Virus record (IMG/VR): IMGVR_UViG_3300027976_000261
Span: 1-20,624 of that record
Length of the DNA stretch: 20,624 nt
DNA from: a virus
Reading direction: 5' to 3' (one strand)
The translations under genes and the position numbers were made by a program. This document shows, piece by piece, positions 2,687 through 18,633 of this stretch. Numbering within the stretch: the first letter of the stretch is position 1; each line of letters opens with the position of its first letter. The notes beneath the pieces were generated by a model. That model had not been told where the DNA came from. It was given only the letters and a program-made list of their open reading frames with translations, and did not search any database.

Positions 2687-3532
2687 TTACATGAACATTA
2701 AGAAGTTGCTGTTTACGGTTGCGGTTGCAAGAACAACAGTAAAGGTTCCACTTGAATTAAAAGTGTGGATAGTATCTCCACCCGAAGTTGTTATTGTTCC
2801 ACCTGTCGAAGAGTCTGAGACTCCGTCACTTCCATTTGTAGCATAAGCAAAAATTACTACACCAGAACCTCCAGCTCCTCCATTTCCTGCTATTGATCCA
2901 TTGCCTCCACCTCCTCCACCGCCACCAGTGTTAGCAGTGCCTGCACTGCCATTTCCATCGTTATTCGCACCATTTCCGCCTCCACCAGTGCCGCCTACGC
3001 CCGCTACGTCGGTAGAATAAGCTCCACCACCACCTCCTCCTGCACGGGTAACGGAACTTCCAGTAATGGAGTTAGCGGTTCCAGTGCCTCCATTTCCGTT
3101 ACTTTGGGCAATGCCTTGATTTCCTGCTGCCACTGCGCCGCCACCCCCGCCACCAGCAAGATTTCCACTAGTTCCTGCCGCTCCTCCTTGATTTCCTTGT
3201 GAGCCTGTACCACCAGTCCCCCCATTATAGTTCCCACCCCCACCAGAGCCGCCAGCACGTCCATTTGGAGCATTTCGTGCTCCACCACCACCACCGCCTG
3301 TAGAAGACATTGTGTCGAAGGAAGATGTATTACCATCATTACCAACTGTGTTCGTTGACGTTTGCGTTGCTCCTCCAGCACCGACCGTTATCGTATAACC
3401 TTGTGCAGTTACAGTATGAGCAGCTTCATACAAATACCCACCTGCTCCACCAGCAGCAGAACCAACACCAGCATTAATGTCTTTTCCTCCTCCTCCACCA
3501 CCAGCTATGACTAATGCCTTTACTGTTGCCAT
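2687..3532 (-). CDS. Glycine-rich tail adhesin-like protein (281 aa)
   Basis: The 281-residue product begins MATVKALVIAGGGGGGKD and contains at least seven runs of four to eight glycines ('STGGGGGGAR', 'NLAGGGGGGAV', 'TRAGGGGGGAY', 'TGGGGGGGGNG'). A 'GSGVVIFAYA' strand lies near residue 225, and a 'DTIHTFNSSGTFTV' segment near the C-terminus. This layout (hydrophobic strand, Gly-rich body, 'GSGVVI' and 'HTF-x-SSGTFTV' ending) is typical of the glycine-rich domain found in phage adhesins and bacterial surface proteins, which pack as polyglycine helices and form receptor-binding tips. It sits directly after the long fibre gene, which supports a receptor-binding role. The very biased composition creates long antisense and shifted open frames that are not genes. 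Confidence 0.85.
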   Translation of the reverse strand: MATVKALVIAGGGGGGKDINAGVGSAAGGAGGYLYEAAHTVTAQGYTITVGAGGATQTSTNTVGNDGNTSSFDTMSSTGGGGGGARNAPNGRAGGSGGGGNYNGGTGGTGSQGNQGGAAGTSGNLAGGGGGGAVAAGNQGIAQSNGNGGTGTANSITGSSVTRAGGGGGGAYSTDVAGVGGTGGGGNGANNDGNGSAGTANTGGGGGGGGNGSIAGNGGAGGSGVVIFAYATNGSDGVSDSSTGGTITTSGGDTIHTFNSSGTFTVVLATATVNSNFLMFM

Positions 3533-3597: not shown

Positions 3598-5463
3598 TCA
3601 AGCTGACGCTACACATTGCCATAGCGTCTTACTCGTACTGTAGATGAATCCGATTGAGAGCGTTACTGTCGTTGCCGCAGTAGTCGTAGGGAGTGCCACA
3701 GTTGTTGCTCCGTAAAGAGTCCCATAAGTCAATGCTCTTGCTGCTGTTGTTGAAGAAGCTACGGTGATAATCAGTTTCTGACCGTCTACTGGCGTGCCTG
3801 TAGGATTCTCAAATTTCAATGCCCCTGTCTGCGCGGTGACAATGAACATGTCCTGTGTATCGCCTGCGATGGAAGTGCCCGTATTTGTAGTATATGAGGC
3901 GGCAGAAAGAATACGTGGAGTAATGCGCTTATTGGTGAAGGTTTGAGTCGCTGCAATCGCCGCTACAGTGTCCGTTACCGCTGGAAGAGTGAGTGTTACC
4001 GTGCCAAGCGCTCCCGTAGGAGGTTCAACAGTTATCGTACCTGAAGTGGCATTTCTAAACCCAACATTCCCCACTGCCGTGCCTGCTGTACCAAGAAGAA
4101 GAGATGTGGTTGATCCTGCCACGAGAGTTGTAAACACGCCGGTGGCTGGGGTTGTCGCTCCTACTGTTCCGTTGATGTTAATTGAAGCTGTCCCCGTAAG
4201 ATTTGTTACCGTACCGCTCGCCGGTGTTCCAAGTGCCGGAGCAACGAATGTTTTGTTGCTCATTGTTTGTGATTTTGTTTTGAAGGTGAACTCGTCTACT
4301 ACGTTGGCAAAGTCTGGAATGGTAAGAGTCGTTACGCCGACTGTTTGAGAAGTAAGTGCGATAGTAACGAGTTGTCCGTTCGTCAAAAGTAATGGAGATG
4401 CGGCAGATGTGGCAAGAGAGGTCGCTGAAGCTACTCCGAGTATGGGGGTTGTAAGTGTTGGAGACGTACTAAACACAAGGTTTGTGGAGGTGGTGCCTGT
4501 CGCACCAGCTGCGGTATAGCCTGTGATATTATTGAACGCTGTAATCGATGCGCTAGAAGCATTCGTACCACCATTCGCTACAGGAAGCACCCCAGTTACT
4601 CCAGTCGAGAGGGGAAGTCCAGTGAGATTGGTGGCAAGTCCCGATGTTGGTGTTCCAAGGACAGGAGCAACGAGTGTAAGCACCCCAGTGCTTGAGTTGA
4701 AAGTGAGGTTCGCATTTGTTTTAGGACCGAGGTTGCCAGTCGCGTCAGTAAAGAATCCTACAAAGCACGAAGTGTCAGTCGCTTCGTTTGCCACAGTGAT
4801 AGTGGTAGGAACGCTTGAAGAAGGGGTTTCCCACGTAGGGGCAACCGTAGTTCCACCAGAAGTAAGAACTTGCCCTACGCTTCCATTCGCAAGACGGGTA
4901 GCGACGCCAGAAGCACCACCATAAAGCACATCGCCGCCGGTTGTCATAGGGTTCGCCATTAAAGTACCCGTGGTAGGAAGCGTGACGTTTGTAGCTCCGG
5001 TAGATGTGAGTGTGATGCTATTTACACCAGACGTTACCAGTGTCGAGCCACTTGCGAGCGTGAGCGTTCCTGTTGTCGTTGTGATCGTAAGTCCGTTTAT
5101 TGAGGTTGCTGTAGCAACACCGAGTACAGGGGTTATAAGGGTGGGAGATGTTTGTAACACCACGGTTGATGTACTTCCTGTTGTAGTCGCAGCGGTAATA
5201 GCCGTACCATTTCCCGCAAGAACAGGAGCATTGATAGTCGTTGAAAGAGTAATAGCCGGAGTAGTCGTAGATGTAGCTACTGTACCGGCAAAGCCGTTAG
5301 CGCTTACAACCGACACACTTGTTACTGTTCCAGACCCTCCCGCGACATCAACAAATAATCGTCCTGTTGATTGATCTCCATGAACATTATACGTGCCTCC
5401 ATCGGTTCCGACGAAAAGCATTGATGTTACAAAATTTTGATCGCGCGAAGCTTGCTCGGACAT
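3598..5463 (-). CDS. Long repetitive tail fibre protein (621 aa)
   Basis: I place the start at ATG 5463 (MSEQASRDQNFVTSMLFVG), one base after the stop of the previous gene; the longer frame upstream only shadows that gene. An N-terminal module of about 45 residues is shared with the preceding protein. The rest is a Thr/Ser/Gly/Val-rich beta repeat region with recurrent blocks such as 'SPTLITPVLGVATATS' and 'SPTLTTPILGVASATS', 'LGTPTSGLATNLTG' and 'LGTPASGTVTNLTG', and one 'LPVANGGTNASS' motif that is common in phage tail fibres. The C-terminus is more varied and ends 'SIGFIYSTSKTLWQCVASA'. The protein probably forms a trimeric fibre or spike shaft. There are no catalytic motifs. Confidence 0.85.
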   Translation of the reverse strand: MSEQASRDQNFVTSMLFVGTDGGTYNVHGDQSTGRLFVDVAGGSGTVTSVSVVSANGFAGTVATSTTTPAITLSTTINAPVLAGNGTAITAATTTGSTSTVVLQTSPTLITPVLGVATATSINGLTITTTTGTLTLASGSTLVTSGVNSITLTSTGATNVTLPTTGTLMANPMTTGGDVLYGGASGVATRLANGSVGQVLTSGGTTVAPTWETPSSSVPTTITVANEATDTSCFVGFFTDATGNLGPKTNANLTFNSSTGVLTLVAPVLGTPTSGLATNLTGLPLSTGVTGVLPVANGGTNASSASITAFNNITGYTAAGATGTTSTNLVFSTSPTLTTPILGVASATSLATSAASPLLLTNGQLVTIALTSQTVGVTTLTIPDFANVVDEFTFKTKSQTMSNKTFVAPALGTPASGTVTNLTGTASININGTVGATTPATGVFTTLVAGSTTSLLLGTAGTAVGNVGFRNATSGTITVEPPTGALGTVTLTLPAVTDTVAAIAATQTFTNKRITPRILSAASYTTNTGTSIAGDTQDMFIVTAQTGALKFENPTGTPVDGQKLIITVASSTTAARALTYGTLYGATTVALPTTTAATTVTLSIGFIYSTSKTLWQCVASA

Positions 5464-5464
5464 A

Positions 5465-5740
5465 TTATCTATCAATGAGGACTTCCCCATCGGAATTAGA
5501 AACCCACGGATATGTAAGACCATCACTCCCAACCCACATCATGCAATTTACATAGTTTTCATCTTTAGAACCTATTGGAATCATAGTAAAAGAAATTGTA
5601 CCCACTTCATCTACCGCCATTCCACCACTAGTTTCGTTTATTCTAATACGCACTTTGTTCGTGCCTTGCACGGTATCAGTATTCAAAACTGCCAGCTTAC
5701 CGGGTACAAAGTTCTGATCGCGAACGGCTTGTTCTGTCAT
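5465..5740 (-). CDS. Small fibre-module protein with duplicated DQNFV motif (91 aa)
   Basis: Starts MTEQAVRDQNFVPGKL, nearly the same as the start of the downstream long fibre (MSEQASRDQNFV). It holds two related halves: residues 1-46 (RDQNFV ... RIRINETSGGMAVD) and residues 58-91 (KDENYVNCMMWVGSDGLTYPW ... GEVLIDR). The second half matches the fibre N-terminus ('RDQNFVTSMLFVGTDGGTY ... GRLFVDV'). It therefore looks like a free-standing copy of the fibre N-terminal module, perhaps an adaptor or a capping subunit. Its stop is one base from the fibre ATG, so the two are probably co-translated. Its own ATG overlaps the stop of a 21-residue micro-ORF in an ATGA arrangement. Confidence 0.8.
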   Translation of the reverse strand: MTEQAVRDQNFVPGKLAVLNTDTVQGTNKVRIRINETSGGMAVDEVGTISFTMIPIGSKDENYVNCMMWVGSDGLTYPWVSNSDGEVLIDR

Positions 5741-8373: not shown

Positions 8374-9474
8374 CTATGAAGCATCATAGTAAGGAACCCA
8401 TTGGTCTGTACCACCAATTCCAATCTTGAAGAATCCAATTGGAGCATTCGTCTGCGGAGCAGCTGTTGATCCAGTTGTACTATTCATATTGAAGTTTTGT
8501 TTGGTAGCTGCGATGCCTGTCGTGTCGATAGCCGCGCCTGTCGTAAGACCGGCGAGCGTAAAGACGAGTCCTTTACCACTTGTCAGAGACGCAGACGTAA
8601 GTTTTACCAACGTCCCCACCACTGTCGCTGTCGCCGCAAGATCAAGAAGAGTGCCGGTAGTTGTACCAGTATCTATCGATGTTGAGGTTAGGCGAAGTAG
8701 AGAGCCACCTGAAGCGATTGCTGCGGTCGTATGCGACAGATTCAACATAGAACCTGTAGTCATTCCCGTAGTAACTAGAGATACAAGAGATCCTGTCGTC
8801 GCTATCACACCTGAGGAAGTTACCACCACTGCATTTCCAGTCGTCAGACCGTTCCCGTTTACACGAAGAAGTCCCGCAGCAGTTGTTGCGCTATTCCCCG
8901 TAAGCGTGAGCAATCCCGCTGTTGTAGTCATCACCCCCGTTGAGGCAATAACAACTGCCACACCTGCTGTGGAAGCTCCATTACTGATGTTAAGCGCTCC
9001 ACCAGTCGTAAGATTTGCACCCCCAGAAGTAATCACCATGGCGAATCCTTCAGTGAGTCCTGTCGCACTAACACGTACAATACCTGTTGAGGTAGTCGCC
9101 GTGTTCGCCGCAACAGAGAGCACATCTCCTGTCGTTACAATGGTACCTGTGGACACAAGCGAAAGCACGTGACCAGAAGTTAAACCATTCGCTGTGATAA
9201 GAGATACTGTTCCCGTTGTTGCACTATTTGCCACCACAGAAGTAACACTTGCACCTGTGAAGATACCAGAGTTCGTGACTGTGAATGCTGCTGCTGTTGT
9301 CGAGGATGATGTAATGTTACCAAGAGCAACAACTGCCGATCCCCCAATTGTCGTTGTCGACGGTAGTGTTACTACCGCCCCTGTCGCGACAGTAAAAGCC
9401 AACTCGGTATAAATACCTTCGTTGTACTTCACAACTGGCACGAAATCCTCAATTCTTTTCGTTCCTAAAGCCAA
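8374..9474 (-). CDS. Beta-solenoid-like repeat protein, candidate head fibre or decoration (366 aa)
   Basis: The start is TTG at 9474 (read as Met; ALGTKRIEDFVPVVKYNEG follows); no ATG is available after the in-frame upstream stop. From about residue 60 to 315 the protein is built of some fifteen to seventeen degenerate repeats of 13-16 residues of the form T-T/S-G-x-x-L/V-x-L/V-x-x-T/A. Examples are 'TTGDVLSVAANTA', 'TTAGLLTLTGNSAT', 'TTGSLVSLVTTGM' and 'TTGSMLNLSHTTA'. This is the texture of a beta-solenoid. A non-repetitive C-terminus ends 'GFFKIGIGGTDQWVPYYDAS'. It is the first gene after the capsid gene, which suggests a capsid-bound fibre, but a tail fibre is possible. The repeat bias creates a long false frame on the other strand. 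Confidence 0.8.
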   Translation of the reverse strand: MALGTKRIEDFVPVVKYNEGIYTELAFTVATGAVVTLPSTTTIGGSAVVALGNITSSSTTAAAFTVTNSGIFTGASVTSVVANSATTGTVSLITANGLTSGHVLSLVSTGTIVTTGDVLSVAANTATTSTGIVRVSATGLTEGFAMVITSGGANLTTGGALNISNGASTAGVAVVIASTGVMTTTAGLLTLTGNSATTAAGLLRVNGNGLTTGNAVVVTSSGVIATTGSLVSLVTTGMTTGSMLNLSHTTAAIASGGSLLRLTSTSIDTGTTTGTLLDLAATATVVGTLVKLTSASLTSGKGLVFTLAGLTTGAAIDTTGIAATKQNFNMNSTTGSTAAPQTNAPIGFFKIGIGGTDQWVPYYDAS

Positions 9475-9751: not shown

Positions 9752-10825
9752 TTACGACGTTCCTGCAAGCGTACCGTTCAGACGTGGTTCAACAGCGAGG
9801 AAGTTACCTGCATAAATCAGATACCCCACTTTTGTGAGCTGGTCTACGGGGCTCATCAACTTCCTGAACTGGAATCCGCGTGTTGACTTAACGTTGCCAG
9901 GTACGCCGGACGGAACCGCATCAGTAGTCTGCTTAAAGTTCGCAGTGATGATGTTTTCGTCCTCGTAATTGAATCCTACGAATCCGAAGCCCTTTGTGTT
10001 TACAAAGAAGAATTTGCCCGATGGGACTTGTTCATCTTTTGCAATCGGAGTGCCACGGAATGTAAGATACACGAAACCTTGCTGTGCTCCTTGACCCGGA
10101 GACGAAGGGACACCGCCCCATGCATTCATCTTCGGATAGCCGGCCGTCGAGAAGTTTGCGCGCACTGTAGGCGTGAGCAAGCTCTCATATGTTGACCAGA
10201 TAGCCTTAGTCGTGAGGGCCATATCAGGAGAGTCAACACCAATCGTTACCGCGTCGTCCGCTGTAGCGAGTTTCGCAAGCGTAAGCGCTCCCGTTGAAGC
10301 AAGATAGTACCCACTAAATGCTGAGTACGTCGATCGTGAGAGATCTCCGTATGTCGCATACAATGTTGAGTCTGATGCCGCGTTTGCGAGAGAGTCCCAA
10401 TCATTACCTGAACCGTTGCCAGTGTAAAGATTTTGAGCCAAGTTGTTCATCAAGGACTGTCCTTGAGAATCGAACTCAGTATCGAGAAGATTCACAATCT
10501 GCTCGTCCCCCATATTTACTGTCGTTTCAGCAATCGCAACAACGACCGGTTTATAGGTCATCTTGAGATTGAAGTTTGCCTGTACACGGACGTTCTGACG
10601 GTCGGTGTCTAACCTGTCTGCAATACCGGCATTTCCACCATTGGTGGTATCCTGGTATTTAATAGCGAATTTGTACGACGTACCTGTCGTCCATTCGCCA
10701 TTTGGGGCATTGAATCTCTTTTGCAAGAAAGTCATAAGCCCCGGAGTTCCTGTCGTCACCTGGTCGTACACACGAGGGACAATAAATTCCCTCGTTGTCG
10801 TAGTGACTGCTGCGTTGAATATCAT
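9752..10825 (-). CDS. Major capsid protein (HK97-fold type, 357 aa)
   Basis: The 357-residue product starts MIFNAAVTTTTREFIVPRVY. It has the layout of HK97-fold capsid proteins: an N-terminal arm, a 'WTTGTSYKFAIKYQD' to 'KMTYKPVVVAIAETTVNMGD' beta/E-loop-like region, a long central helix region ('QSLMNNLAQNLYTGNGSGND'), and a C-terminal beta section ('GKFFFVNTKGFGFVGFNYED', 'GFQFRKLMSPVDQLTKVGYL'). No long prohead-protease delta domain is visible, consistent with a separate scaffold gene directly upstream (10842-11564). It is flanked by a strong stem-loop downstream. The family assignment comes from synteny plus residue pattern and has not been checked by a profile search. Confidence 0.85.
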   Translation of the reverse strand: MIFNAAVTTTTREFIVPRVYDQVTTGTPGLMTFLQKRFNAPNGEWTTGTSYKFAIKYQDTTNGGNAGIADRLDTDRQNVRVQANFNLKMTYKPVVVAIAETTVNMGDEQIVNLLDTEFDSQGQSLMNNLAQNLYTGNGSGNDWDSLANAASDSTLYATYGDLSRSTYSAFSGYYLASTGALTLAKLATADDAVTIGVDSPDMALTTKAIWSTYESLLTPTVRANFSTAGYPKMNAWGGVPSSPGQGAQQGFVYLTFRGTPIAKDEQVPSGKFFFVNTKGFGFVGFNYEDENIITANFKQTTDAVPSGVPGNVKSTRGFQFRKLMSPVDQLTKVGYLIYAGNFLAVEPRLNGTLAGTS

Positions 10826-11701: not shown

Positions 11702-13669
11702 TCATTTCTTCTGCAAATTACTCTTATCCTGCACCTGCTTTTGCGTAGCCATCTTTTCAGCAATAAGTATCGCAGGATTCGCCTGTATCCCTATCTTAGC
11801 AAGAAGTTGAAGTTGAGCATCCGGTGGCAAATCTGCATAACCAATCGACACCGACGGGGGCTTCTCTTCCGGTTTTGGTTTCAAGGCGGCTGCGTCTTGT
11901 TCCGAAATACCCGTTGCCACAACTGGTGCCAGGTGATATTTCACTGCGTTCTGTGCTTTTGTCTTCGGGTCGTCATAGTTACCTGCCTCGAGATAATCAG
12001 TGAGTCCTAGAGCCCCTTGTTTGAAATCTACTTGCGCTTGTTCGAATCGGAATTCATCATCAATTGGCAGTGACTTGCCAGCGATAACTTTCGCTTCAAG
12101 CCCATTCTCAAGATCGTCTTGCATAAGATCAATAACTTCTCGCGCACCTTCTTTCCCTACCCATTTTGCATAGTGAGGCTCTGTGTAGCGTGTCTTTGCA
12201 AGCTGGAGCGCCCATGAAAACATTTCCTGTGCGACGAAATCGTTAACTTGTACAAGCTCATTAAGCCGTAAAAATGACTGCTGGATCAATGCAAGTCGTC
12301 CGGCCTTTGTTTCTTGCCCCTCGCGCACACCTCGAAAAGCACTCGTAGCAGCCATTATATTATCAATTTCTTGCCTTGAATCAACCATGTCCTCAAACAC
12401 AAATTGTGGGAGTGGAGTACCCATTTCACGGGAAACACCATTTTTTACATTCTTTCCCCAAATAATTCCTTTCGTCTCAAATCTAATACGCTGTGCCTCA
12501 GCCTTACTCATCACTGTGGCATCCACTTTAAGAATACCGTTCACCAGTTCTGCGTTCTCGTCTATGTCACACTTGCGCTTATCAATACCGCGTTGCAAAG
12601 ACGAAGAAAGCGTGATCATGTCGGTACGACCAATAGGCTTATTTTCATTATTGAAAAGCGTGGCAAAGATATATGGCTTACGTGGGGCATCAAAATAGTT
12701 GAAAAAGTATGGTTTATATTTAGGCGATTGTGGTTGTACGGTACCCGTTGCTCCTTGAGACGGCTCAATTTCTCCTTCAGGCATCTCCACTACCTCTTGT
12801 TGCATTGATGCTTTTCTACTCTCTTGGTCTAGCTTTATAGCCTGCAAGTAATCACGACGGGCTGGTCCCTCAAGTCCCTGAAACTTTCCACTCGCATCAG
12901 TCTTATCAAGCTGTTCCTCTTCGTCTTCAGTGATGAGGACCCCTTCCCAATCCCAATACGGATTCTTTATTTTCCCTAGCACTATATCCTCGAGCTTAAA
13001 CACAACATAATCCTGTATCCACGACTCTTTGTATTTCACGTCTGGATTCTTGATATACAAATCTGCTTCGTCCGTAATCCCGTATTTTTTCATCAAAACA
13101 TCCTTCTTTGTTGGAAAACGCTGACACAACGCACAAAGATTGTCGTCAATCTCTTCAATCGCAAATTCTGAATCCTGCTCCTTACGAGCAAATTTACTGA
13201 AACGTACCTTGTTCGGCTCTATCGATCGAAAATCAAAATCATCAATGACTGGATTCCAAAACGCCTTAATAACGAAGAGACGTCCAAAATACAGGTTACG
13301 GTTAGCCATTCGCACAGTCTCTTTTGTGTTTAAGTCAGTGAATTTCTTACGCAGATAACTCTCAAGGCGTCGCGCAAATTGCTGCGCTAATTCACCATCG
13401 CGCGTCGGAATCATATTGAGGCCCGGTGGATTAGCAATGACGGCATTTATCACTGACTCTACATTCACAAAAATTCTGTTCGCCTGAACTGCAAAGTTGC
13501 GCCGACGCTCTGGAAGAAGGTCAAGCCACGCCCCTTTATTCTCATAAATCGCAGTATTTTGTTTATATACTTTCTCTATTGTGTCCCAAATATCTTTCGA
13601 TGATTCCCATCGATTATCAACAAGACGGCTTAGTTCTGTATCTTCGAATGTGGCAATATCAATTTTCAT
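11702..13669 (-). CDS. Portal protein (655 aa)
   Basis: Starts MKIDIATFEDTELSRLVDNR. The N-terminal half has portal-like features: 'RRNFAVQANRIFVNVESVIN' followed by AVIANPP, a typical clip/stem lead-in, and 'FGRLFVIKAFWNP'. The C-terminal half has a long helix region with 'FRGVREGQETKAGRLALIQQ' and 'SFLRLNELVQVNDFVAQEMF', similar to the stem and wing helices of large portals (P22-like size class). The portal forms the dodecameric DNA channel at the head vertex and docks the terminase. Synteny is classic: terminase large subunit, small gene, portal, scaffold, capsid. The start is preceded by a hairpin that buries the only strong Shine-Dalgarno. Confidence 0.88.
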   Translation of the reverse strand: MKIDIATFEDTELSRLVDNRWESSKDIWDTIEKVYKQNTAIYENKGAWLDLLPERRRNFAVQANRIFVNVESVINAVIANPPGLNMIPTRDGELAQQFARRLESYLRKKFTDLNTKETVRMANRNLYFGRLFVIKAFWNPVIDDFDFRSIEPNKVRFSKFARKEQDSEFAIEEIDDNLCALCQRFPTKKDVLMKKYGITDEADLYIKNPDVKYKESWIQDYVVFKLEDIVLGKIKNPYWDWEGVLITEDEEEQLDKTDASGKFQGLEGPARRDYLQAIKLDQESRKASMQQEVVEMPEGEIEPSQGATGTVQPQSPKYKPYFFNYFDAPRKPYIFATLFNNENKPIGRTDMITLSSSLQRGIDKRKCDIDENAELVNGILKVDATVMSKAEAQRIRFETKGIIWGKNVKNGVSREMGTPLPQFVFEDMVDSRQEIDNIMAATSAFRGVREGQETKAGRLALIQQSFLRLNELVQVNDFVAQEMFSWALQLAKTRYTEPHYAKWVGKEGAREVIDLMQDDLENGLEAKVIAGKSLPIDDEFRFEQAQVDFKQGALGLTDYLEAGNYDDPKTKAQNAVKYHLAPVVATGISEQDAAALKPKPEEKPPSVSIGYADLPPDAQLQLLAKIGIQANPAILIAEKMATQKQVQDKSNLQKK

Positions 13670-13750: not shown

Positions 13751-13969
13751 TTATTCATGCAAGTGCCTGCGCGAATACAACCTATCCTTCCTTTCGATAA
13801 CCTGAAGCACGCCGTTGTTGTCAAAATTAAGTACGATCGAGGCATTGTGCTGTTCGAATACATGAGCTTCAACAAGCGTTATGAACACATCAAAATGCTC
13901 TTTGAACAGCAGAAACTGTCGAGCCTCATTATCAGGCATGTATACTGCGACTTCAATTTTCGGGGGCAT
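13751..13969 (-). CDS. Small conserved-type protein between terminase and portal (72 aa)
   Basis: I take ATG 13969 (MPPKIEVAVYMPDNEARQFL), which overlaps the end of the terminase large subunit by 17 nt; ATG 13978 would add three residues. Longer upstream readings are out-of-frame shadow of the terminase. The protein pairs a beta strand ('KIEVAVYMP'), a helix with a Phe/Leu-rich face ('ARQFLLFKEHFDVFITLVEA') and a second strand pair ('ASIVLNFDNNGVLQVIERKD'). A small gene of this kind commonly sits between terminase and portal in phages. No family name or function is known to me. Confidence 0.7.
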   Translation of the reverse strand: MPPKIEVAVYMPDNEARQFLLFKEHFDVFITLVEAHVFEQHNASIVLNFDNNGVLQVIERKDRLYSRRHLHE

Positions 13970-15533
13970 AGTTCGCATTATTATCGCTAAACGCACGGGA
14001 AACGTCGTATACATTATCTGCACCCAATACCGACGGCTTATCCGACGCTGTAGTTTCGGCGAAGAACGTGCCTGATCCCGATCCCAACATGGCCAGATAA
14101 CTATACAGGTCTGCAAAGACATAGTGGTCCACCCCCGTTGTAGACGCCCAGATATATCGCTCTATTCCCTTACTATTCACCACTTTCTCACGTCGAAGCG
14201 TCTCGTAATGCTTGATATATTCTCGAAACTGCGCGTCCGTCGACACGGCTATAAGGAATTTCGCTTCAAGCATATCAGTGAACATGCGGTCCAAAATACG
14301 ATCACGGTGTGAATACACAATGCCGTATTTATCATTCTCTCCCCACCATACGATTGTCTGTGGATTGTTCGCATTTTCTTGAAAATAACTCATCTTCATG
14401 AACGGGTATGTGGAGACGTAATGATTCGCGGCTGTATTATCAGGCATAGCATCGATTACCCCCGCAGTCGGCTTCCAGATGGAGATAATATCGTCCAAAT
14501 CCTTCCATTCCGTGAAACGCCCTATTTTAAGGATACCTTTCTCACTACGCACCGAGTAATGTTTCATGTTCCCCACGTCCACACCGAGAAAAACGTTACC
14601 CGTTCGTAGGTCTTTTGGTGTCCAAATGTCAAGGATAGTTGACTTCGAAATTGATAGGTCCCCAGGAGAATATGTCTTCCCAAGAATGAAGTTGTTAAAG
14701 TATGCAGGATCGCCCTCCGAATCTTTGATAATGTCATCAGCAGACACTTTTAAGAACATTAAGTGTGATATGTGGTATCCATGAATTTTTGAGCCTGTAT
14801 TCTGTGCTACCCACTTTCCACGGCGTCGGGTTTCATCACTTATGATTGCCCTACAGTTTCGACAGATAAATACTCGTTTCTCCTTATCAATGCTATCAGG
14901 CCACACCATGACGTGTTGGTCCTTACATTCCGAACACGTTATCTCCCACTCCCTTTGGTCGCTCTTTTGCCACGCGAGATCGAGCTCATCGCGCTCTGAT
15001 CCGGGATTGCTAAATAACCATCGGCCCTTGTAATCGCTTGCTTTAGTGCGAGATTTATAGGTCTCTATAGCAAGCTGGTCCGACCGGGACACTTCGTCAT
15101 GAACGAGCAAGTCAGCTGTGGTCGAAATAGCGGCTGTTTTTGATATAGTTCCCTTAAAGAAAATAAATCGTCCGTTTATCTCCTTTCTTTCTATAGAATC
15201 CGAGTCCATCCCCCTGAACTCATGTGAATTCGCTTGTATAAGTTTATTAAACTTTGAAGAGACAAATTCGTTAGTATCGGACTCTGTGGGGAATGTATAA
15301 ATAACATTCATGCCAAGATGCTTTACCGCAAACAGTGTCTTTAACGAAAACACAATAGACTTTCCCACCTGTGCACACGCTGCGACAACTATATCTGGAT
15401 GAAAGTCTGTCAAAATATCCAGTAAAAAGGCACGATCTTTATAGTCGAACAGCTCTCCCTTTTCACTCACAATGCCCCTCTCCAATATCCAATGAAGCAC
15501 CGAGAAATACTGCTTATTTGCTTGTTTTGTCAT
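13953..15533 (-). CDS. terL: Terminase large subunit, GpA-type (526 aa)
   Basis: This is the ATP-driven motor and nuclease that cuts and packages phage DNA. The ATPase part has a Walker A 'AQVGKS' (residues 54-59), the form seen in lambda-gpA-type terminases, and a Walker B 'LLVHDE' with Asp146-Glu147. Two Cys pairs (C200/C203, C224/C227) make the zinc-binding insertion typical of this family between ATPase and nuclease. Candidate nuclease acidic residues are Asp319 ('FLGVDVGN'), Asp361 ('GVIDAMPD') and Asp469/Asp475 ('GVDHYVFADLYSYL'). Length is a little below the usual 600-640 residues for GpA. The ATG overlaps the end of groEL by 20 nt, so the two are probably translated together. Confidence 0.92.
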   Translation of the reverse strand: MTKQANKQYFSVLHWILERGIVSEKGELFDYKDRAFLLDILTDFHPDIVVAACAQVGKSIVFSLKTLFAVKHLGMNVIYTFPTESDTNEFVSSKFNKLIQANSHEFRGMDSDSIERKEINGRFIFFKGTISKTAAISTTADLLVHDEVSRSDQLAIETYKSRTKASDYKGRWLFSNPGSERDELDLAWQKSDQREWEITCSECKDQHVMVWPDSIDKEKRVFICRNCRAIISDETRRRGKWVAQNTGSKIHGYHISHLMFLKVSADDIIKDSEGDPAYFNNFILGKTYSPGDLSISKSTILDIWTPKDLRTGNVFLGVDVGNMKHYSVRSEKGILKIGRFTEWKDLDDIISIWKPTAGVIDAMPDNTAANHYVSTYPFMKMSYFQENANNPQTIVWWGENDKYGIVYSHRDRILDRMFTDMLEAKFLIAVSTDAQFREYIKHYETLRREKVVNSKGIERYIWASTTGVDHYVFADLYSYLAMLGSGSGTFFAETTASDKPSVLGADNVYDVSRAFSDNNANYAPEN

Positions 15534-17037
15534 CTTCTTTTACGGTAACAATGGCCGTTTCCATACCGACAATTTGCATGGCGATCGCTGTCGCTGATTC
15601 GAGCGCGAGGCGAGTGACTTTGTAAGGATCAATGATACCGGCATCAAACATGTTGACCCTTTCTCTAGTCTTAAAATCAGTACCCCAACCAGAAGTATTG
15701 CCTACATTTAAGAGAACGTTAGCATTCTTCGCCATCTGTTCTAGTGGTGCGAATAAGGCCACTTTGAACATACTTTCTTCCACACGCGGGACGATATCTA
15801 CTAAAGCAACACCCCCGCCCGCTAGTATCCCCTCCTGCAAAGCGGCTTGTGTCGCATTGATACCGTTTTCGAACTTGTATTTCTTTGTATTGAACTCCGT
15901 GTCCGTGTATGCTCCCACACGAATGACGCCGATACCGCCCGTAAGTGAAGCGAGTCTGTCCTCAAGCATACCTTTCTGATACTCGCTCGTCGTTGCGGCA
16001 ATTTCCATCTGAATAGTAACAACCCTTTCCAATGTGTCGCCACGACCTCCGATAATAGTCGTAGTATCACGAGTAACAATCACCTTATCCGCTCGTCCGC
16101 ATAACGTTATATCCGCCTTTTCAAGCATCATTCCCATCTCTTCGCTGATTACTGTCGCCCCTGTTAGTGAGGCCATATCAAATAAGAATTCTCTAGACGG
16201 GCTTGCGGTATACGGATTACGTACGCACGCGATGTCTGCGATCTTATTTACTGCATTCTGTGCGAGTGATCCGAGCGCTACTCCCTCGACATCTGTCGCA
16301 ATGAATAATATGTCCTTCCCCGTGCCAATAGACTGCAAGAGCGGTAGTATCTGCTCGTTTGTAGATATCTTTCGGTCCACAAGCACTATGTATGCATCCT
16401 CAAGCACTGTCTGCTTGCGCTCATGGTCGTTGATAAAGAACGGCGATATAAGTCCTTTATCAAACCGAGCACCCTTTACCACCTCCTGTGAGTAGCCTAG
16501 CTCTGCACCACGCTCCACCGAGACTACACCATCAATACCGACCATTTTAATCACGTCCGCTATATGCTTCGCGACATCGGAATCGAGCGAGGATATTGCC
16601 GCTATCTTCTCAATATCGTCCTCCGACACATCGCGCTTGATCTTTGAAAGCTCTTTGAGCGTCTCCGCAAGCCCTATCTCGAGACGTTCACGCACTTGGC
16701 GAATCTTCGATGAGTCATTTTCAACCTCCTTTAATGCCTCCATTGCAAGACATCGTGTCAAGACTGTCGTCGTAGCAGTGCCGTCTCCACCCTCTACACT
16801 CGTTCTGATAGCGGCTTTGCGCAGCATCTGAAGGCCCATCTGTTCGTATGCGTCGCCAAACTCTAAACTCTTTAGAATAGTCACCCCGTCGTCCGCAATT
16901 ATAGGATCGAGGCCGGGAAACTCAATCATTGCCGTCATTCCTACTGGCCCGAGCGTTGGCGCAACCGCATCAGTTGCCTTCTGGATACCATCCATCACCT
17001 TTTGTCGCGCGCTCGGACCTTGCATTATTTCTTTCAT
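15514..17037 (-). CDS. groEL: Phage-encoded GroEL-type chaperonin with altered catalytic and inter-ring residues (507 aa)
   Basis: A group I chaperonin by end-to-end similarity to GroEL: 'TLGPVGM' at 28-34, 'DDGVTI' at 49-54, 'GDGTATTTVL' at 84-93 (Asp85 = E. coli Asp87), apical 'FDKGLISPFFIN', 'ATLTGG'-like 'ASLTGATVISEEMG', 'AGGGVAL' at 406-412, and 'DPYKVTRLAL' with Asp470 = Asp495. Oddities by hand alignment: Asn391 replaces the catalytic Asp398 ('FENGINATQAA' against 'VEDALHATRAA'); Glu433 replaces Arg452 ('APLEQM' against 'APLRQI'); the stretches around Glu434 and Glu461 are shortened or absent; Val263-Val264 in the substrate groove become Ala-Gln; there is no C-terminal GGM tail (it ends DDKTSK). 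The start overlaps the upstream 95-residue gene by 68 nt; AAAAGGA lies 13 nt before ATG. It shares an operon with groES and terminase. Confidence 0.95.
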   Translation of the reverse strand: MKEIMQGPSARQKVMDGIQKATDAVAPTLGPVGMTAMIEFPGLDPIIADDGVTILKSLEFGDAYEQMGLQMLRKAAIRTSVEGGDGTATTTVLTRCLAMEALKEVENDSSKIRQVRERLEIGLAETLKELSKIKRDVSEDDIEKIAAISSLDSDVAKHIADVIKMVGIDGVVSVERGAELGYSQEVVKGARFDKGLISPFFINDHERKQTVLEDAYIVLVDRKISTNEQILPLLQSIGTGKDILFIATDVEGVALGSLAQNAVNKIADIACVRNPYTASPSREFLFDMASLTGATVISEEMGMMLEKADITLCGRADKVIVTRDTTTIIGGRGDTLERVVTIQMEIAATTSEYQKGMLEDRLASLTGGIGVIRVGAYTDTEFNTKKYKFENGINATQAALQEGILAGGGVALVDIVPRVEESMFKVALFAPLEQMAKNANVLLNVGNTSGWGTDFKTRERVNMFDAGIIDPYKVTRLALESATAIAMQIVGMETAIVTVKEDDKTSK

Positions 17038-17257
17038 ATGTACTAAAGATTCCTTTTAACGTAGTAATATCCTTTGCTCGCATACTCACCTCCTCACTTA
17101 ATGGCATAAACACGATGTACTCACCCTTATGCAGAACGCCCCCTATCGTGACATCAGGCTTCTTGAAAGCAAATCCATCCGGTATTCCCTGGACCTGCGT
17201 CTCATCGTAACCCTTTCCATCTATAAACCTCTCCACACTGGCGCGCGTCGTTATCAT
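16970..17257 (-). CDS. Unknown 95-aa protein between groES and groEL
   Basis: The ATG at 17257 overlaps the groES stop as ATGA, and the frame runs 68 nt into groEL, so the three genes are interlocked. The protein begins MITTRASVERFIDGKGYDET and has a central 'IGGVLHKGEYIVFMPLSEEV' stretch and a charged C-terminus (NARSERATKGDGWYPEGN). The central part faintly recalls the 'RVGDIILFAKYSPDTQEV' strand region of the neighbouring GroES, which could mean a diverged GroES-like fold, but the similarity is too short to trust. No known family is recognised. Its position suggests an accessory factor of the phage chaperonin; this is inference from context only. Confidence 0.75.
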   Translation of the reverse strand: MITTRASVERFIDGKGYDETQVQGIPDGFAFKKPDVTIGGVLHKGEYIVFMPLSEEVSMRAKDITTLKGIFSTYERNNARSERATKGDGWYPEGN

Positions 17258-17511
17258 AGTACGGCAAGCACATCCTCAACGCGCACGATCTTCATCTTCG
17301 TGCCCTTATAATCAACCTCTTGTGTGTCCGGTGAGTATTTAGCGAATAAAATAATATCACCTACCCTGAACGGCATATCACCCTCCGGAAACGGGGACAC
17401 CTCCACTTTCCCCTTATACACAAAGCTATCCTGCACCTCGACCGTTGTGAATCCCTCCTTAACCAAATCTTCAATCTTCGACACCAACACCCTATTGCCA
17501 AGTAACCTCAT
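17254..17511 (-). CDS. groES: Phage-encoded GroES-type co-chaperonin (85 aa)
   Basis: The lid of the chaperonin cage. 'NRVLVSKIED' at 6-15 matches GroES 'DRVIVKRKEV', 'YKGKVEVS' matches 'TRGEVLAV', 'RVGDIILFAKY' at 49-59 matches 'KVGDIVIFNDG', and 'IVRVEDVLAVL' matches 'IMSESDILAIV'. At 85 residues it is about 12 shorter than E. coli GroES, mainly in the roof hairpin (reduced to about 'PFPEGDMP'). The mobile loop (residues 12-33) is present, but the Ile-Val-Leu tripeptide that docks on GroEL is replaced by Phe-Thr-Thr-Val or similar. The ATG is 3 nt after the previous stop, without a strong Shine-Dalgarno. It overlaps the next gene by ATGA. Confidence 0.9.
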   Translation of the reverse strand: MRLLGNRVLVSKIEDLVKEGFTTVEVQDSFVYKGKVEVSPFPEGDMPFRVGDIILFAKYSPDTQEVDYKGTKMKIVRVEDVLAVL

Positions 17512-17514
17512 ATG

Positions 17515-17958
17515 TTATGTATTCTTACGCCCATAAAGTAATTGAAACCCGCTCTCCCCTGGCTGGACCATATCTGCATAGTGCGAGCCCCGATCCTTAT
17601 GCACTGCGCGCGAACGATACCAGAAGGCATCCTTACTCTTGTCCGTTATCAGTCTCATGCACCAATGTCCTTGAAAGCATTTTGTCTTATAGAACGCGAT
17701 GTTCTGTCCGTTACGTGACCAATCGACTTCTTCCTGTTTCACCGCTACACCCTTAAAGTCTTTAGAACATTTCTCACACCAAAAGTCTGTCAACGTAACA
17801 TTCTTTGCGTCCTTTATAATCTCACCGCGCTCTGCTCCCACTCTTTCTCTGTCCTTGAAAACTGTCCGATCAGCCGCTCGCTTGTCTTGTGTCTCAATAA
17901 GTTGCCTAATATGTGGATGGTATTCGATGCCCGGGCGTGGCGTATGTTCGTATTTCAT
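17515..17958 (-). CDS. Putative zinc-binding protein of unknown function (147 aa)
   Basis: A basic, hydrophilic protein with a Cys/His cluster likely to bind zinc: C61-x2-C64 ('WCEKCSKDF') and C94-x3-H98-x-C100 ('TKCFQGHWCMRL'). The spacing of about 30 residues between the pairs is like a treble-clef or zinc-ribbon unit. Residues 1-55 are charged and helical ('RQLIETQDKRAADRTVFKDR'). The C-terminus has aromatic patches ('AFWYRSRAVHKD', 'GFQLLYGRKN'). The ATG overlaps the stop of the upstream gene (ATGA). Location inside the packaging operon suggests a nucleic-acid or assembly role, but no family is recognised. Confidence 0.75.
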   Translation of the reverse strand: MKYEHTPRPGIEYHPHIRQLIETQDKRAADRTVFKDRERVGAERGEIIKDAKNVTLTDFWCEKCSKDFKGVAVKQEEVDWSRNGQNIAFYKTKCFQGHWCMRLITDKSKDAFWYRSRAVHKDRGSHYADMVQPGESGFQLLYGRKNT

Positions 17959-18170
17959 ATCAAGTTTTTAATTCGCTCATACCACGGCGCCATACCCTCA
18001 TCGATACGCGTCTGCTCAATGAATTCTTCGTGCGTCCCCTCACCGAGAAAAACAGCGCTCTCATCCCCGGCGTCCGGTATCTGTTCAACATCGGACATTA
18101 CCTCAAGCGCTTTGAGCGCCTCCGGCTCCTTCCGGCTTAACTTCCACGCTTGTTTGAGCCTGTTCAACAT
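17955..18170 (-). CDS. Small acidic protein of unknown function (71 aa)
   Basis: Begins MLNRLKQAWKLSRKEPEALK, an amphipathic basic helix, then turns acidic ('DAGDESAVFLGEGTHEEFIE'), and ends 'EGMAPWYERIKNLI'. The 5' end overlaps the terminase small subunit gene by 68 nt. ATG 18098, just after the terminase stop, would give a 47-residue alternative that keeps the acidic part. The 'FLGEGT-x-EEF' segment looks like a conserved motif of small phage proteins, but I cannot name it. It is tied to the next gene by ATGA overlap. Confidence 0.65.
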   Translation of the reverse strand: MLNRLKQAWKLSRKEPEALKALEVMSDVEQIPDAGDESAVFLGEGTHEEFIEQTRIDEGMAPWYERIKNLI

Positions 18171-18633
18171 TTGCGAGTAACTTAACTTTTAATGTGTCTT
18201 CAAGAGCCTTAACGGCCTCTTGAGTATCCGATGAAAAGAGAATGTTGTATGTGTTTCCACCGACAGGTTTCATCTGATCCTCCGCTAAACCGTAAATTTT
18301 TGTTGCATGTGCTAGACCCCGGTCCACCGCTTGATACCCTTTCGTTTTTAAGAGTTGTTTCACTTTCTGTGCTAAAAATTGAGGACCCACTCCCTCCCTC
18401 TCCAGCGCTTCGCGTAGAGTTAGAGCCACTCTTGCCTCCTCGACCTTGACAGCTTCCGCGATATATGGCTTTAACAAGTTTTCTGATGCGACATTACTTG
18501 CAACAAAATTATTCTTCAAATTATAATTTCTCATCGCAGACTGTGTCCCATTTCCCGTCAAAACATAATCACGAACAAAGCCGAATTGTTTTTTAGTCAG
18601 CTTTATTGGAGCCACCGTCGGAATCTCCGACAT
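18103..18633 (-). CDS. terS: Terminase small subunit (176 aa)
   Basis: The small subunit recognises phage DNA and guides the large subunit. Residues 11-65 ('LTKKQFGFVRDYVLTGNGTQ', then 'SAMRNYNLKN ... ASENLLKPYIAEAVKVEEAR') follow the usual terminase_2-type pattern: 'LT-x-KQ-x-x-FV-x-x-Y', a 'G-N-x-T-Q-A' helix-turn-helix, and 'LL-x-x-P-x-I-x-x-A'. After it come a basic helix ('QFLAQKVKQLLKTKGYQ') and a flexible Ala/Gly/Glu C-terminus. It is the fourth-from-last large packaging gene upstream of terL rather than adjacent: five genes, including groES and groEL, separate the two subunits, which is unusual. The ATG at 18633 lies within the preceding 56-residue gene. Confidence 0.85.
   Translation of the reverse strand: MSEIPTVAPIKLTKKQFGFVRDYVLTGNGTQSAMRNYNLKNNFVASNVASENLLKPYIAEAVKVEEARVALTLREALEREGVGPQFLAQKVKQLLKTKGYQAVDRGLAHATKIYGLAEDQMKPVGGNTYNILFSSDTQEAVKALEDTLKVKLLANVEQAQTSVEVKPEGAGGAQSA

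Follow-up and report, generated by a model that had tools for sequence, protein, structure and literature searches.

Asp398 of helix M in Escherichia coli GroEL has been treated as indispensable for ATP hydrolysis, and it is invariant even in the aligned jumbo-phage GroELs of ~23% identity. The E. coli D398A variant binds ATP normally, has 2-3% of the wild-type ATPase activity, and retains GroES binding, encapsulation, and folding (PMC3326522, PMC3813556). Single-ring GroEL is arrested by tightly bound GroES and becomes functional once the GroES anchor is weakened (PMC5575113). For Plasmodium Cpn60, exchange of the same aspartate (D474A) was reported to give mostly single rings, with hydrolysis estimated to take ~40 min (PMC7960994); human mitochondrial Hsp60 also shows single-ring behaviour, but the wild types of these two non-viral proteins keep the aspartate. 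The chaperonin of phage EL keeps the catalytic aspartate as Asp412 (PMC7185714), and chaperonins of the EL/OBP/AR9 type work without a co-chaperonin (PMC7185714, PMC9598537). The need for hydrolysis and for coupled rings has so far been approached via engineered mutants. One of these is the single-ring mutant SR1, in which the inter-ring contact residues R452, E461, S463, and V464 are altered. Phages T4 and RB49 encode lids, gp31 and CocO, which are adapted to capsid-protein folding. In the literature searched, outside which lies the virioplankton survey of Marine et al. 2017 (ISME J), we found no paper on a GroEL D398N variant, natural or engineered, and a paper on soil viral chaperonins (PMC8390657) does not discuss the site.

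The window, i.e., the whole stretch of DNA that was analysed (20,624 nucleotides), is a 20.6-kb uncultured virus record. It contains a packaging/head operon on the minus strand in which a groES-groEL pair sits between two terminase genes:

18103-18633, minus strand: terminase small subunit, with which the packaging operon starts (Pfam Terminase_2, E = 9e-9)
No coordinates, minus strand: 71-aa ORF, listed in operon order between the terminase small subunit and the 147-aa ORF
17515-17958, minus strand: 147-aa Cys/His-rich ORF, putative zinc ribbon, lying upstream of groES in those relatives that were read
17254-17511, minus strand: GroES-like co-chaperonin, 85 aa, with a mobile loop GFxTV versus GGIVL and a KYSPD motif
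16970-17257, minus strand: small ORF of 95 aa between groES and groEL, with a 'VQ(I/V)(D/E)GIP.G.(A/S)F'-like motif
15514-17037, minus strand: phage GroEL, 507 aa, Asn391 variant
13953-15533, minus strand: terminase large subunit, GpA type, directly downstream of groEL (Pfam GpA_ATPase, E = 2e-19; PHROG 675)
11702-13669, minus strand: portal, same operon
9752-10825, minus strand: major capsid protein, candidate client, whose closest isolate-phage relative is a TM7 phage

The ORF at 15514-17037 was identified as GroEL by matches to Pfam Cpn60_TCP1 (PF00118, E = 5e-40) and PHROG chaperonin groEL (E = 2e-104) and by an AlphaFold model. Three positions of its nucleotide pocket are considered below:

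15865-15867, minus strand: codon AAC, Asn391, in the column of E. coli GroEL Asp398
16774-16776, minus strand: Ala88 within the Mg/phosphate motif GDGT(T/A)T, at the place of Thr90 in E. coli (codon located by counting from the start of the ORF)
16888-16893, minus strand: Asp49-Asp50, opposite Lys51-Asp52 of E. coli; the second catalytic acid is Asp50, and Asp49 is also found in Doudnabacteria GroELs

Residue 391 is Asn with the codon AAC, as originally predicted, but the codon lies one base away from the positions 15864-15866 given at that time. The gapless alignment proposed for the site was confirmed by HMMER pairwise comparison with three solved GroELs, which placed N391 on the catalytic Asp, with FENGINATQAA opposite FEDALNATRAA-type motifs. 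The same assignment was obtained in a family-wide alignment including E. coli K-12 GroEL. A wrong alignment, or a different Asp occupying the site, was ruled out, as the motif is gapless over 279 sequences and no acid was gained at the site.

Two scans of viral contigs gave relatives of this GroEL at ~40 loci, leaving 39 distinct sequences after removal of duplicates, the window included; two independent contigs, L001 and the partial L008, carried an identical sequence (100% identity). All 39 sequences, down to 55% identity, had Asn in the Asp398 column, encoded by AAC in 18 and by AAT in 14 of the 32 codons read. Outside the clade, the alignment showed Asp in 240 of 240 GroELs: 66 bacterial ones including E. 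coli, 23 from annotated phage-collection records, a few of which are probably bacterial contigs, and 151 from further viral contigs. This is the sole column that is invariant on both sides and yet switched. Outside the clade, conservation reaches at least 98% in twenty-nine columns, six of which (38, 57, 90, 282, 398, and 509) are changed inside, column 398 being the only one without an exception on either side. At position 90, Ala was present in 37/37 clade members covering the site.

Pairs of clade GroELs showed dN/dS values of about 0.05-0.14 where computable, and the gene is therefore under strong purifying selection. This and the use of both Asn codons point to maintenance of the Asn, even though a single transition would give Asp; no reversion was found in the clade. 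Bias from the search patterns was ruled out, since the Asn column lies outside the peptides PFF[IV]NDH and N[AT][KM][KQ]YKF, and wider scans using different patterns gave Asp every time outside the clade. Intermediates combining phage-like loops with Asp398 were absent from the viral-contig scans, in which identity jumped from at least 56% to at most 38% with an empty gap between.

The original statement on the remaining nucleotide residues, that they are conserved, holds for Asp50 (D52), Asp85 (D87), the D495 equivalent, and the GGG turn (414-416) but is incomplete, since T90 is Ala. Throughout the clade G32, D52, G53, D87, G88, T89, T91, G414-416, and D495, all ATP-binding residues, are invariant with the exception of T90. 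T90A, K51D, and variability at P33 are changes of the same pocket that had been missed before. The combination of Asn at the Asp398 column with otherwise kept ligands is stronger than first claimed, because Asn is fixed throughout the clade. By fold and family the phage GroEL is a group I chaperonin minus one hallmark, the catalytic Asp398 on helix M, in place of which all members carry Asn.

The AlphaFold model of the GroEL, based on a 50-sequence alignment, had a mean pLDDT of 89.4. In this model residues 379-402 form a single helix, helix M, with N391 within it. The best PDB match was GroEL-ADP (4ki8; Z score 43.5, 499 residues), followed by single-ring human Hsp60 (9shk; Z score 42.6). The predicted fold is an ordinary GroEL fold with helix M intact.

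Differences were found in the region that makes the ring contacts:

15664-15801, minus strand: shortened, variable equatorial region, approximately residues 413-458, with the E434 loop deleted and inter-ring contacts unconserved

The loop bearing E434 is absent from 39/39 clade GroELs, and the contacts removed in SR1 are likewise deleted or unconserved: R452, E461, S463, and V464 all vary, R452 being replaced by Lys, Asn, Ile, Val, Glu, and others (Glu in the window). Because the loop aligns poorly, and R452/E461-type contacts are frequently lost in other phage GroELs too, we go no further than to propose that the clade GroEL probably forms single rings or loosely joined pairs of rings. Within the apical domain, Gln or Lys mostly takes the place of V264 and Ala that of V263, the E257 position is hydrophobic, and the R268 position is polar. 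The equivalents of E257 and R268 are lost together, beside V263A and V264Q/K, and the joint changes suggest a re-engineered lid or substrate surface.

Wherever the sequence of a relative extended far enough upstream, the GroES gene adjoined groEL, and a Cpn10 match (PF00166) was obtained for the GroES of 26/26 relatives, which argues that the lid was retained, unlike in EL, OBP, and AR9. The GroES model matched the structures of GroES and T4 gp31, with low confidence at the mobile loop, as expected for a disordered loop. In the clade this loop reads G-F/Y-x-x-V in place of G-G-I-V-L, so that the anchor tripeptide IVL is missing. Judged from the residues, both the lid (IVL to Fxx(V)) and the lid-binding surface of GroEL (V264 to Gln/Lys, V263 to Ala) are altered. 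T4 encodes the lid alone and uses the host GroEL, whereas the clade phages encode both parts.

EL gp146, OBP gp246, and AR9 gp228 resemble the clade protein in being phage-encoded, GroEL-like, and weak or lacking in inter-ring contacts. However, EL keeps the catalytic Asp, as do 23/23 aligned phage-collection GroELs, these chaperonins have no co-chaperonin in contrast to the conserved GroES next to groEL, and identity to the EL type is only about 20-25%. The clade GroEL is not an EL/OBP/AR9-type chaperonin and groups instead with Doudnabacteria GroELs. This grouping, with GroELs that share Asp51, was obtained in a quick and in a careful tree, the latter calculated without EL-type rows and giving a support of 100/100. 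A long stem branch, with about 1.6-1.8 changes per column, leads to the clade, and the placement could reflect long-branch effects. Among cellular proteins, those of Doudnabacteria come closest in the trees; they have D51 and F480 in common with the clade but keep Asp398, Thr90, and the R452 contact and have a GGM-type tail (seen in L043). Identity between the two groups is only about 40%, and K51D was present in 27 Doudnabacteria-type GroELs, every one with Asp398.

The KYSPD motif of the clade GroES also occurs in Patescibacteria GroES. The major capsid protein has its nearest isolate-phage relative in the TM7 (Saccharibacteria) phage DolZOral124_53_65 (27% identity), whose own GroEL keeps Asp398. 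Tree, KYSPD motif, and capsid protein agree in pointing to a Patescibacteria (Doudnabacteria-type) origin of the groES-groEL pair, hinting at a Patescibacteria host and linking these uncultured phages to such hosts. A search for the terminase large subunit in 49 Doudnabacteria-class genomes gave only matches of 31-33% in three genomes, with no other window gene in the short flanking loci, and showed no prophage in these genomes.

A degenerate-DNA survey of 380 Patescibacteria genomes detected the Asp motif in 288 and gave five matches to the Asn motif, of which two were real GroELs. These, L297 (genome G150, IENAVASTKAA) and L298 (genome G291, VENAVNATRAA), are full-length Patescibacteria proteins with GGM tails and are distant from the phage clade in the tree. 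An Asp-type GroEL motif was absent from both genomes in this survey. The sole order-mate of L298 in the collection has Asp, and L297 has no order-mates; the two are either real exceptions or errors of metagenome-assembled genomes. In the phylum of an Acidobacteria bin (G004), where the Asn motif alone was run, it was found in 0/297 genomes. Asn is thus a rare, sporadic state in cells and fixed in the phage clade, nearly but not strictly phage-only, and L297 and L298 indicate that it may be compatible with a housekeeping function.

The data as a whole are best explained, with slightly better than even confidence, by a private cage of clade GroEL and GroES that binds ATP and its own lid and hydrolyses slowly. 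An uncultured tailed-phage clade would have obtained both genes, groES and groEL, from a host of the Patescibacteria (Doudnabacteria type) and remodelled them into a folding cage of its own, whose clients are probably virion proteins. Since the GroEL retains its fold and phosphate loops as well as Asp85, which binds Mg2+, and Asp50, the second acid of catalysis, ATP binding, closure of helix M, and acceptance of the phage's own lid are expected. The fixed exchanges of Asp398, the general-base/water-positioning residue, for Asn and of T90 for Ala would strongly slow hydrolysis, as in D398A, and so lead to long encapsulation. As inter-ring contacts are missing or not conserved, and Phe-x-x-Val, facing altered helix-I residues, has replaced Ile-Val-Leu as the anchor of the lid, release would be set by the slow timer and a weaker lid affinity, not by ATP binding to an opposite ring. 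Such a slow-timer cage, encoded in a packaging operon, would have head proteins as its probable clients. More tentatively, and with clearly lower confidence, we propose that the cycle is independent of fast hydrolysis, ATP binding and the weak private lid causing capsid protein to be enclosed in a single ring for a very long time or in a nearly one-shot manner.

At the level of sequence, the clade unites three features: helix M lacks its carboxylate, the inter-ring contacts are lost, and the anchor of the lid is altered. It shares with D398A and SR1-D398A the lost carboxylate and the kept nucleotide ligands, but differs from them in being natural, in having Asn instead of Ala, in T90A, in a co-evolved lid, and in clade-wide fixation. 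If the proposal is true, the clade GroEL is a natural counterpart of the engineered SR1-D398A, evolved in phages of Patescibacteria. An Asn-fixed clade with its own lid makes the need for hydrolysis and for two coupled rings directly testable, and if the slow-cycling reading is true it offers ready-made slow-cycling cages for structural work.

The original prediction had left two outcomes, that the protein binds ATP but cycles slowly or that it uses another residue. We regard the first as the best-supported mechanism. The second has been weakened, as the clade has acquired no carboxylate of its own at the site and Asp49 (K51D) is common to Doudnabacteria GroELs that keep Asp398. A related possibility, rather doubtful but the strongest of the alternatives, is that ATPase activity is useful and near normal, with Asn391 positioning the water and Asp50, together with Asp49, serving as the base, so that cycling is little affected. 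The D398A precedent concerns Ala, and Asn could still hold the attacking water; the kept Asp50, which is invariant, could bear more of the catalysis, and the neighbouring Asp49 provides a second acid in all members. Compensation would also fit the two bacterial GroELs with Asn, apparently sole copies, and the clade-fixed pocket changes T90A, I454M, and V396F could be co-adaptive. However, since D51 occurs together with Asp398 in Doudnabacteria-type GroELs, it did not come in as compensation when Asp398 was lost, which rules out K51D as a unique substitute acid. Moreover, E. coli D398A falls to the low ATPase activity given above, and T90A takes away another phosphate-site hydroxyl.

Interference with the host chaperonin, in which the phage subunit co-assembles or competes with host GroEL and slows it without a folding cycle of its own, appears unlikely. 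Descent from a host-type GroEL would allow it, and a hydrolysis-poor subunit could be dominant negative, but the low identity to Doudnabacteria GroEL, the diverged ring contacts, the adapted GroES, and the position in a packaging operon speak for a private cage. Poisoning of host GroEL is possible yet less likely given the private GroES. We consider it very improbable that the Asn391-Gly392 pair deamidates spontaneously to Asp or isoAsp, restoring the catalytic acid after translation and acting as a timer. Asn-Gly is the fastest deamidating pair and is present in the window and three relatives (L002, L007, and L018), but the remaining members have Asn-Ala, which deamidates far more slowly, and are still Asn, and the site lies inside a helix; as a general mechanism this was ruled out. 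A sequencing or assembly error, a pseudogene, or relaxed selection behind Asn391, for which nothing speaks beyond the unusual residue itself, is practically excluded by 39 distinct sequences from many metagenomes with intact ORFs, two Asn codons, and low dN/dS.

Some further genes of the window deserve mention. The 147-aa Cys/His-rich ORF belongs to no Pfam family and matched none of 50,697 annotated phage records. A small ORF at the position between groES and groEL, with a conserved VQ(I/V)(D/E)GIP.GF-like motif, is present in many relatives (L002, L011, L013, L022, L025, L026, and L039), and the 95-aa ORF of the window is a possible third component of the chaperonin operon. Elsewhere in the window, a glycine-rich protein is encoded at 2687-3532 (Pfam Gly_rich_2, E = 3e-17), next to repetitive proteins rich in Thr/Ser at 3598-5532 and 8374-9474; these are probably tail or fibre proteins.
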